Part shown: positions 52,352-54,393 of the stretch, piece after piece
How the letters are laid out: every line of letters begins with the position of its first letter
How positions within the stretch are numbered: position 1 is the first letter of the stretch
NCBI RefSeq assembly: GCF_030409225.1
Contig: NZ_JAUFPK010000001.1
Location: forward strand, 249,284 to 313,283
Origin: Aquisalimonas lutea
Lineage (GTDB): Bacteria; Pseudomonadota; Gammaproteobacteria; Nitrococcales; Aquisalimonadaceae
Reading direction: 5' to 3'
DNA: 64,000 nt
The notes under the pieces: generated by a model
Told to the model about the DNA's origin: nothing
What the model saw: only the letters and a program-made list of their open reading frames with translations
Databases searched by the model: none
Translations under genes and position numbers: made by a program

Positions 52352-53335
52352 CTACGAGGAAGATCGATTCGTCCGACGGTCGACGACGACCCGGTTCCGG
52401 CCATCGTCCTTGGCCCGGTACAGCGCCCTGTCGGCGCGGCCGACCAACTCGTTGGCCGACTCGCCCGGCCGCCATTGTGCGGCGCCGATACTGGCGGTGA
52501 CCGAAAGGCGTTCCGCGGGGCTGTCCATGACGGCAATCGCCTCGCGCAGCCGTTCGGCCAGAACGGCGGCGCCGTCGCCGTCCGTATTGGGAACGAGGAC
52601 AATGAACTCCTCCCCGCCCCAGCGGGCAACCACATCCGGCGCCCTGAGGGTGGCCTGCAGCGTCGCCGCGACGCATCGCAGTACCTCGTCGCCCTGCAGG
52701 TGGCCGTGGGTGTCGTTGATCGCCTTGAAGTCATCGAGATCGACGAGCAGCAGGGAGAACGGGTCACCGTATCGGCTGGCTGCGTCGATCTGCGTGGTGA
52801 GCAGGGCATCGAAATGACGCCGGTTCGGAAGGCTGGTAAGCAGATCCGTGCGCAACAGCCGCTCGATTTCCTCGGCGCGCTGGCTGAGCGTGCGATTGGC
52901 GCGCACGAGGGCACGTTCCTGGTCGGCATAGTCCTCGGTCAACGCCAGGAGCTGGCGCTGCAGTTGCCGGTCCTGTTCAACCTCCCGCTCACACGCCACC
53001 ACGAGATGAGCGCCCTGGCGATACACGCCGCCGACCCAGGTCTCCGATTCGCCGTCCATGTTCCCCAGCGTCATCCACCCGGTGAACACCTCGCCATCGG
53101 TGGCGGATTCCGCCTTGTCGAGGAGCTCGCCGAACCGCGGGTTGATGAACAGGGAGCGGACGTCCTGCCCGGACGGCGGGTTGTCCGCCGCGGACGCCAG
53201 CGCCAGGAATCCCTGGTTGGCATCCGCTACCCGGCCGCGGTGATCGAGCACCGCGAGCAGTACGCTGCGCAGCGGGCGGAGATAGGACGGGATCTCCGGG
53301 ACACCGTCCGAGCCATTCGTCAGCGGAGCAGTCAC
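52352..53335 (-). CDS. PAS-like GGDEF diguanylate cyclase coupled to a B12-binding protein
   Basis: 327 aa. N-terminal PAS-like domain (about residues 15-115), coiled linker (about 118-160), GGDEF domain. GGEEF (240-244) is intact, with RAPD five residues upstream as I-site. GTG start at 53335 overlaps the stop of the B12-binding gene by four bases, so translation is coupled and the two proteins probably work together. The longer frame from 53461 overlaps that gene and is rejected. Confidence 0.88.
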   Translation of the reverse strand: MTAPLTNGSDGVPEIPSYLRPLRSVLLAVLDHRGRVADANQGFLALASAADNPPSGQDVRSLFINPRFGELLDKAESATDGEVFTGWMTLGNMDGESETWVGGVYRQGAHLVVACEREVEQDRQLQRQLLALTEDYADQERALVRANRTLSQRAEEIERLLRTDLLTSLPNRRHFDALLTTQIDAASRYGDPFSLLLVDLDDFKAINDTHGHLQGDEVLRCVAATLQATLRAPDVVARWGGEEFIVLVPNTDGDGAAVLAERLREAIAVMDSPAERLSVTASIGAAQWRPGESANELVGRADRALYRAKDDGRNRVVVDRRTNRSSS

Positions 53336-54393
53336 GCGTACTCCTCCAGCGCAGTTCGTGGCTGCGCATGCCATTGATCCAGCCCGAGGCGTTGCGCAAG
53401 ATTCGGAACCGCATCGAGACCGGCGCCCCCGGCGATGATCCGCGGCGCCGCGTCCCCGCATGCGGAACGAATGCGGTCCACGGCCTCCTTCAAGGCGGGC
53501 AGCTGCCGGATCAGCGCAACGGAGAGCCCGACCAGCTCCGGTTGCGTCTCCAGGATACGCTCGACCAGGGAGTCGATCGGCGTATCGGCGCCGAGGTAGT
53601 CCACCTCCCAGCCCTCGAGCTCGAAGGCGTCAGCCGCAATGCGGGCTCCCAGGACGTGCTGGTTGGAAGGAACGCACGCAAAGAGCGCCCTGCGGCCGTT
53701 CCCGGCTGCCGGCGTCGCCTCGGCGAGCTGCCGCACCAGCAATCGCTGCGCCAGCGCGGTCGCGAGTTGCTCCTGGGCCACGCTGACCTTCCGCGCCTGC
53801 CAGCCCTCGCCGATACGATACAGGGCCGGTTGCACCAGGCGAACGGCCATGTCCACATAGCCATGCTCGGCCGTCGCCGCGGCGACGATCTCCTCACAGC
53901 GGCGCTGATCCCCCCGTATCAGGCTCTCCGCGAGGACCTCCGTGCAGGGATGACAGGCCGTGGCGTCGATGGACGAGTGGGGACCACGGCCCAGAGCGGG
54001 TGATTGCTCGAGGGCACGGCGTCCACCCTCGAGAACCGCGTTCACCAGATCGAACTGCGCCGAGGGAAGCCGGTCGCGGAAGAAGTCGCGAAGAAGGTCG
54101 ACCGATCGCGGCAGCGAGTCCGGAGGCACGCCGCGAGCCGCGAGAAGCTCGTTCAGCCATACCACATACTGGCCGAACAGGGCGGGCTCACCGGCAATCA
54201 GGCTCCCGGCGATGTAGTCGAAGAGGGCGTCCACATCGTCCCGGCCGCTGTCGCCGAACACATCCTCGCCCGCGGCCGTTCGCTCGCAGACGGCCGCCAT
54301 GACCTCATCCACCGCCTGGGCACGGTACTGCTCCACGGCCTGCGCGGCTGCAGCGCCTTGTTCCAGAGGTATCGAGGGATTGGCTGGCACCAT
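53332..54393 (-). CDS. Cobalamin-binding sensor-like protein
   Basis: 353 aa. N-terminal helical region (about 15-130) of unknown type. Then a methionine-synthase-like cap bundle (about 150-225) with W198-x9-E208-Q209, close to the Wx9EH motif of CarH-type photoreceptors but with Gln for His. The B12 Rossmann domain (about 236-345) has NQHVLG (H246 as lower axial ligand, the usual Asp replaced by Asn), GLSVAL and AGGAGLD. No HTH or catalytic domain. It precedes and overlaps a diguanylate cyclase gene, so it may relay a B12 or light signal to c-di-GMP. Confidence 0.82.
   Translation of the reverse strand: MVPANPSIPLEQGAAAAQAVEQYRAQAVDEVMAAVCERTAAGEDVFGDSGRDDVDALFDYIAGSLIAGEPALFGQYVVWLNELLAARGVPPDSLPRSVDLLRDFFRDRLPSAQFDLVNAVLEGGRRALEQSPALGRGPHSSIDATACHPCTEVLAESLIRGDQRRCEEIVAAATAEHGYVDMAVRLVQPALYRIGEGWQARKVSVAQEQLATALAQRLLVRQLAEATPAAGNGRRALFACVPSNQHVLGARIAADAFELEGWEVDYLGADTPIDSLVERILETQPELVGLSVALIRQLPALKEAVDRIRSACGDAAPRIIAGGAGLDAVPNLAQRLGLDQWHAQPRTALEEYA

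Follow-up and report, generated by a model that had tools for sequence, protein, structure and literature searches.

A photocobilin-type sensor gene overlapping a diguanylate cyclase gene in Aquisalimonas lutea: a candidate two-protein light-to-c-di-GMP switch

A gene for a cobalamin-binding protein whose stop codon overlaps the start of a diguanylate cyclase gene raises two questions: which signal the protein reads, and whether the cyclase is its target. The locus lies on the minus strand of a 64,000-nucleotide stretch of the Aquisalimonas lutea genome (the window; genome G000). The original prediction, made from the sequence alone, described a cobalamin cap and Rossmann domain with no DNA-binding or enzymatic module, placed ahead of a GGEEF cyclase, as a light- or cobalamin-responsive input to c-di-GMP along a route not known to be described. 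Our analysis suggests that the two genes probably constitute a two-protein light-to-c-di-GMP switch, in which a photocobilin-type sensor would act on a separate cyclase.

Domains and ligand residues of the sensor

The features of the sensor gene are as follows.

53332..54393, minus: photocobilin-type sensor gene, 353 aa; predicted globin-like bilin domain, B12 cap and B12 Rossmann domain
54004..54366, minus: globin-like N-terminal domain, aa 10-130 (phmmer stretch to 8J2X and six helices in the AlphaFold model); the match to the SasPcob biliverdin domain
54235..54237, minus: Asp53, equivalent to SasPcob Asp270, key biliverdin contact (alignment and PMC10979010 numbering)
54157..54159, minus: Trp79, equivalent to SasPcob Trp296, ring D/corrin contact (alignment and PMC10979010 numbering)
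53719..53943, minus: B12 cap helices, aa 151-225, B12-binding_2 (Pfam and model)
53767..53802, minus: W198-x9-E208-Q209, upper-ligand motif with Gln where His is expected (sequence)
53338..53691, minus: B12 Rossmann domain, aa 235-352 (Pfam B12-binding and model)
53656..53664, minus: N244-Q-H246, lower axial His with Asn at the E/DxH position (sequence)

The open reading frame runs from an ATG at 54393 to a TGA closing at 53332, and its predicted cobalamin module is borne out by profile search: B12-binding_2 matches residues 153-218 (E 1.2e-10) and B12-binding residues 235-339 (E 2.7e-17), both above the curated Pfam cut-offs, and the domain search over the whole protein found no DNA-binding or catalytic domain, again as predicted. 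What the original prediction overlooked is the N-terminal third. Residues 1-150 match no Pfam family; in a phmmer search against the PDB, residues 19-106 align to residues 228-318 of the photocobilin 8J2X (i-Evalue 1.2e-7) and residues 154-348 to its residues 11-201 (whole-sequence E 2e-27). Because the two aligned stretches stand in opposite order, the domain order is swapped compared to 8J2X. The AlphaFold model (15 sequences; pLDDT 89.0, pTM 0.87) contains six N-terminal helices, followed by the cap helices and the Rossmann domain; its top Foldseek match, with an E of 3.0e-10, is the dark-state photocobilin 8J2W_A, aligned over 203 columns, which is roughly the size of the B12 half, and the globin half gave no separate Foldseek match. 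The CarH profile scores 78.7 bits against an NCBIfam cut-off of 400 and covers the B12 part only, with no MerR DNA-binding domain. These alignments identify the N-terminal third as a globin domain of bilin type, making the protein photocobilin-type.

Both bilin-contact residues of photocobilins, Asp270 and Trp296, are kept in the sensor as D53 and W79 (equivalence taken from the printed alignments and the PMC10979010 numbering, chain number plus 6 by our own derivation). In a 15-row alignment W79 is invariant (15/15), as are W198, E208 and the lower-ligand H246, and the D53 column holds Asp in 11/15 rows, His in 3/15 (all from G405) and Glu in 1/15. It speaks against the assignment that D53 of the window sensor comes right after a 4-residue gap in this alignment and after a stretch of low confidence in the model (mean pLDDT 61 for residues 41-50, against 91 for residues 51-60). 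The three His-bearing copies (L097, L098 and L099) are photocobilin genes of a single 2.8 Mb genome; the published fusion protein AbDPcob likewise has His at the Asp270 position and, according to the main text of PMC10979010, binds biliverdin weakly.

Two motif oddities had been claimed, Gln for His in W198-x9-E208-Q209 and Asn for Asp in N244-x-H246-xx-G, and both are present; judged by alignment, they differ in weight. The NxH form is typical of the clade to which the window sensor belongs: Asn occurs in 6/6 of its rows, and also in the three copies from G405, which rules out NxH as a defect. EQ is unique to the window copy, with EH in 21/22 rows bearing the motif (L003, where a contig end cuts the sensor ORF short, does not have the W-x9-E stretch). 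The published signature of light-responsive B12 domains (SignatureFinder) calls for GxxW, EH, GxxH and GxxxP together; the window sensor has GEGW and GADTP and departs from the signature at EQ and SNQH, so that the signature as published would miss it. The departure at GxxH weighs little, because the Gly is also absent from 8 other rows of 23, same-genus G003 among them; EQ is the oddity, and as it is unique to this copy it makes the light response of the window sensor uncertain. Since the window protein reads EQ and NxH where the two characterised members have W-x-EH and E/DxH, we place it as a photocobilin-type variant, not a proven photocobilin, with chromophore binding as a prediction.

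It is therefore worth asking whether the sensor reads cobalamin itself, the AdoCbl/OHCbl state or the bilin supply instead of light, with Q209 weakening the light switch and cofactor status being passed on to c-di-GMP. The unique EQ and the incomplete light signature fit such a role, as does the behaviour of AbDPcob, which AdoCbl inhibits in the dark relative to the apo form (main text of PMC10979010). However, W198, E208 and H246 are invariant, the G003 relative carries the same gene pair and retains EH, and a Gln could still form a hydrogen bond at this position; we consider cofactor sensing rather unlikely and light sensing the better reading.

The cyclase, the gene overlap and the recurrence of the pair

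The features of the cyclase gene and its junction with the sensor gene are as follows.

52352..53335, minus: diguanylate cyclase, 327 aa, GTG start; PAS-like domain, long helix and GGDEF
53332..53335, minus: GTGA stop/start overlap of the sensor TGA with the cyclase GTG (sequence)
53341..53347, minus: GGAGGAG within the final sensor codons, probably where ribosomes bind to translate the cyclase (function predicted)
52985..53266, minus: PAS-like domain, aa 24-117, where the sensor is proposed to dock (model; Pfam PAS_4, E 0.015; subfamily searches)
52391..52849, minus: GGDEF catalytic domain with GGEEF at aa 240-244 and I-site RxxD (R231, D234) (Pfam and sequence)

The cyclase assignment and the GTGA overlap both stand as originally described: Pfam identifies GGDEF with an E of 4.4e-48, and the GG[DE]EF active site and the RxxD I-site are intact. 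GGAGGAG ends 5 nt upstream of the cyclase GTG, and its combination with the GTGA overlap has the usual anatomy of translational coupling, which the two genes would then share. Ahead of GGDEF, Pfam detects PAS_4 weakly (E 0.015, below cut-off), and the model contains a strand/helix domain of PAS type ahead of a long helix; the closest folds include the PAS-GGDEF-EAL protein PA0861 and phytochrome-activated cyclases, matches that are carried by GGDEF. No Rfam RNA, riboswitches included, scores above its gathering threshold between 51000 and 56000, and no sigma-70 or terminator consensus was found between 51500 and 54800, a result that is uninformative in a GC-rich genome. The next ORF downstream of the cyclase (52236-51598, minus) looks, by sequence reading, like an FMN-binding protein of PaiB type.

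These features bear on a further explanation, namely that the window copy is decaying, or is chromophore-free and merely a structural partner of the cyclase. The lost His of EH and the small deletion ahead of D53 would agree with it, and full-length AbDPcob, even as apo protein, is more active than the isolated cyclase (main text of PMC10979010). Set against this are two intact ORFs whose stop and start codons overlap, with GGAGGAG ahead of the second, the retention of the invariant ligand residues, and a cyclase that keeps GGEEF and its I-site; we regard this explanation as improbable.

The gene pair recurs, as a genome survey of the kind proposed with the original prediction now establishes: sensor and cyclase are neighbours at four loci, in the window, in same-genus G003, in a Rhodoferax MAG and in a Rhodopila MAG. 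in G003 an ABM-family gene, the sensor and the cyclase follow one another in that order, the latter two overlapping by the 4 nt ATGA; 11 nt separate sensor and cyclase in Rhodoferax; and in Rhodopila a sensor ORF that is partial at the contig end overlaps the cyclase by 10 nt. Adjacency in three other genomes argues that the pairing is more than chance; the spacing over the four loci, from a 10 nt overlap to an 11 nt gap, is no independent test, because the cyclase loci were recognised by adjacency.

The sensor family is rare and scattered. Among 40 relatives searched, a full-length homolog is present in one of four further genomes from the genus (G003, 50% identical) and was not found in same-genus G001, G002 or G004. 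Matches over both sensor domains, judged by query range, occur in 7/369 genomes of the class, G000 included, and in 3/398 of a draw from the phylum besides G000, plus 2 that are split or partial; at E 1e-40, matches occur in 1/385 genomes of another class of the phylum and in 4/54 of the order, counting G000 and G027, the latter with its B12 and globin parts as separate genes. Class and phylum matches whose query range covers just the B12 part were left out of these counts save for G359 and G295, which are AerR-like by sequence reading, and divergent sensors may thus be missed. Relatives also occur in 13 plasmid records, 8 of them from Azospirillum; loci from 3 of the 13 were inspected.

In a tree of the B12 part (23 rows), the window sensor pairs with that of G003 (99/93), within a five-row group that adds G914, Rhodoferax and Rhodopila (95/82) and a six-row group that adds G623 (100/99); the G485 and G027 sensors fall outside the window's group. 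Nine of the 20 inner branches have weak support and are drawn open. Elsewhere in the family of the window genome, G006 and G009 carry AerR/PpaA-like B12 proteins beside PpsR-like PAS regulators by sequence reading (L009, L010, L022), and this family therefore seems to include phototrophs.

A PAS-like subfamily, its outputs and the bilin supply

The four cyclases have in common an N-terminal domain (approximately residues 24-117) that is PAS-like in the model, followed by one long helix and GGDEF. Sensors in other genomes stand beside other outputs: histidine kinases by Pfam in G038 and G485, by annotation in A. thermophilum, and by sequence reading in G071, G215, G222, G510, G027 and A. brasilense; the partner in G914 ends, by sequence reading, in a LuxR-type helix-turn-helix. 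A profile of the PAS-like domain from the four cyclases, run on 2489 mechanically listed ORFs from the fetched loci, matched beyond its own four the G914 partner (5.8e-16), the G485 kinase (2.2e-12), the truncated G623 partner (1.9e-9) and, weakly, the G027 kinase (0.003), and no further ORF of the 2489.

The alignment of this domain was also run on 40 whole genomes, 16 with the sensor and 24 without a full-length match (23 of the 24 searched at 1e-40; G633 has a B12-part match at 2.4e-26). It matched five of the 40, once in each and always inside the sensor gene cluster: directly downstream of the sensor in G000, G003, G914 and G623, and one gene further on in G485, beyond a separate globin gene; two of the five (G000 and G003) contributed to the query alignment. 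None of the 24 genomes without a full-length sensor match has the domain (0/24), nor do 11 of the 16 sensor genomes, several of whose kinases have a second N-terminal domain group in common. Within the 40 genomes searched, the PAS-like subfamily is thus confined to sensor clusters, and its matches indicate that one subfamily has been mounted on three outputs, GGDEF, kinase and LuxR-type. Partner exchange is suggested by G485, whose sensor sits elsewhere in the tree yet whose cluster carries the same PAS-like domain. It is possible that this domain is the docking site for the sensor.

Several loci show other arrangements. In G914 (L116:4833-5948, plus; L111) a photocobilin gene is followed by the same PAS-like subfamily on the LuxR-type protein, and on plasmid p1 of Azospirillum brasilense Sp7 (L108:4338-7283) a response regulator, a photocobilin and a histidine kinase, unannotated and recognised by sequence reading, stand in a row. 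In L026 (G027) and L104 (G485), two different genes encode the B12 domain and the globin, clustered with a histidine kinase gene.

That the cyclase is not the target, and that the two genes are merely cotranscribed with the sensor acting elsewhere, is an explanation to which we give very little credence: photocobilin genes without an obvious output partner beside them do occur, in G405 (all three copies), G348, G416 and Skermanella rosea, but genomes from separate groups have this PAS-like subfamily after the sensor, attached to different outputs, which points back to the cyclase as the partner.

A second recurrent neighbour concerns the supply of the bilin. A small ABM-family gene adjoins the sensor in 9/15 genomes searched with the G003 protein (G003, G623, G071 (divergent), G482, G038, G510, G215, G284 and G485) and also in the Rhodoferax MAG; over 23 loci, 10 have it, 11 do not and 2 (L003 and L094, at contig ends) are unscorable. 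Pfam confirmed PF03992 (ABM) in the three neighbours tested. The gene is not adjacent to the sensor in G000, G222 (where the contig starts 461 nt before the sensor ORF) or G416, and no homolog of the G003 protein was found in G027, G348 or G405. A chance figure of 6e-20 for the adjacency is not taken as evidence, because the genomes are related (G071 and G215 belong to one family) and its inputs are rough. Ten loci carry the gene (L024:6950-7366, minus; L002:4431-4835; L092:6244-6543; L101:2050-2349; and six more). In G284, one ORF (L096:6059-7039, minus) joins an ABM domain to a PAS-like stretch (a weak match) and a Cys-rich tail, and overlaps the photocobilin start. In the window, no such ORF lies upstream of 54393, and the genome holds two distant weak homologs.

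Among named profiles, the ABM neighbours score best with the heme-degrading HmuQ or with PRK13315 'heme oxygenase', in every case well short of the cut-off, with HmuQ (NCBIfam) the top profile for 2/3 queries, and their solved relatives include HmoB, MhuD and IsdI. The Asn-Trp-His triad of IsdG, which the main text of PMC5557675 describes as required by all characterised members, is incomplete in these neighbours: Trp is kept in 10/10 and His in 9/10, and Asn is replaced by Ser in 9/10. Bradyrhizobium hmuQ and hmuD enzymes are reported to give biliverdin (main text of PMC6449446), and a bilin-making role for the ABM neighbour is an attractive possibility. A classical heme oxygenase occurs in 3/15 genomes only (G000, G003 and G284). 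The window genome thus has a heme oxygenase and, in addition, a BtuR-type adenosyltransferase. Only G003 among the genomes searched has a PHY domain; a bacteriophytochrome is accordingly not the reason for the heme oxygenase of G000, where an iron-scavenging role is possible.

The neighbours, partners and outputs can be drawn together as a plug-and-socket system: a separate two-chromophore photocobilin, a bilin-making IsdG/HmuQ-like enzyme that many relatives encode next to it, and, on cyclases, histidine kinases or LuxR-type factors, a dedicated PAS-like socket, so that one sensor type would drive three outputs in trans. We offer this wider scheme tentatively, and on balance with more doubt than conviction.

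Proposed working and relation to known systems

For the window pair, the parts of the switch that rest on this analysis are the domains, the overlap, the recurrence, the ligand residues, the PAS-like subfamily, and the heme oxygenase and BtuR-type enzyme of the genome. We propose that they could work as follows: AdoCbl would be held between the cap and Rossmann domains of the sensor with H246 as lower ligand; a bilin from the genome's heme oxygenase would lie against D53 and W79 in the globin-like domain at the N-terminus; the overlap in translation would deliver the two proteins jointly; light absorbed by either chromophore would break the Co-C bond; the cap helix bearing E208-Q209 would shift, and the changed sensor would act on the PAS-like domain of the cyclase; and the signal would pass along the long helix to change GGDEF activity. 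By analogy with published relatives, the chromophores would be bound, the photochemistry would occur, the two proteins would touch directly and light would activate. The sign of the light effect may also be the reverse: in the absence of biliverdin, SasPcob activated the cyclase in the dark and inhibited it in the light (main text of PMC10979010).

Two photocobilins have been characterised, and their discoverers call the function of standalone ones 'less clear' (main text of PMC10979010). The gene pair brings together natural partners with which to address it, namely a sensor, the domain that matches it and an enzyme whose activity can be assayed. A genuine socket would account for the connection of a single sensor to several kinds of output, and would be a building block for controlling c-di-GMP with green and red light. 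Should the ABM neighbour make the bilin, a photoreceptor chromophore would have a source by heme degradation other than the classical heme oxygenases. Azospirillum brasilense Sp7, a soil bacterium open to genetic work in the laboratory, also has a photocobilin next to a kinase.

The closest known system is AbDPcob (PDB 8J2Y), in which B12 and globin-like domains control a GGDEF cyclase and light raises turnover >10-fold; separate photocobilins also alter the activity of its isolated cyclase domain in trans in vitro (main text of PMC10979010). Domains, overlap and recurrence give good support to the original prediction that a cobalamin-domain sensor feeds a c-di-GMP cyclase; the route, there taken as not known to be described, is already published. 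AbDPcob is one polypeptide with B12 before globin and His at the Asp270 position, whereas the window has two genes, globin first, an Asp, and a PAS-like domain before GGDEF. SasPcob (PDB 8J2W, 8J2X) resembles the window sensor in being standalone, in its Asp and Trp bilin contacts and His lower ligand, and in altering a cyclase in trans in vitro; it differs in its reversed domain order and its EH and ExH motifs, and the main text reports no cyclase gene partner. Because the published photocobilin groups carry the B12 domain at either end (main text of PMC10979010), the globin-first order is not new in itself.

Clusters of BBAG-2 globin and B12 genes keep the two as separate genes, as do L026 and L104, and BBAG-2 is reported to bind biliverdin; their bilin enzymes differ, being HO and pre-PcyA, and the terms diguanylate, histidine kinase, monooxygenase and IsdG do not occur in the text of PMC10151467. 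The main texts of PMC10979010 and PMC11796333 do not contain operon, PAS or monooxygenase, the gene-neighbourhood results of PMC10979010 lying in supplements outside this comparison; a census of c-di-GMP inputs from 2022 mentions neither cobalamin nor B12 in its main text. Literature searches on the ABM link, the Azospirillum case and a B12-PAS-globin sensor returned nothing on point, and the sensor-cluster PAS-like subfamily and the IsdG/HmuQ-like neighbour were not found in the main texts searched, supplements aside. The photoglobins of Schneider et al. 2022 (CSBJ) are said to couple a non-heme globin to a B12 domain and to have been proposed as light sensors in signalling systems, a likeness in both make-up and context; an earlier mention of the gene pair, for example in that paper, is possible.

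CarH and CtMerR have the same B12 cap and Rossmann module but a DNA-binding output on the same chain and no globin domain. In PapB-PapA, a BLUF sensor reportedly acts on a separate c-di-GMP enzyme, so that light control there, too, passes between two proteins. Light also controls a c-di-GMP enzyme in the phytochrome-cyclase IsPadC (main text of PMC8846402); PapB-PapA and IsPadC use other chromophores and folds, and the analogy is one of working, not of kinship. In conclusion, light-activated c-di-GMP synthesis by photocobilins, including in trans, is already known, whereas the two-gene form with a dedicated partner domain looks new, as far as searched.
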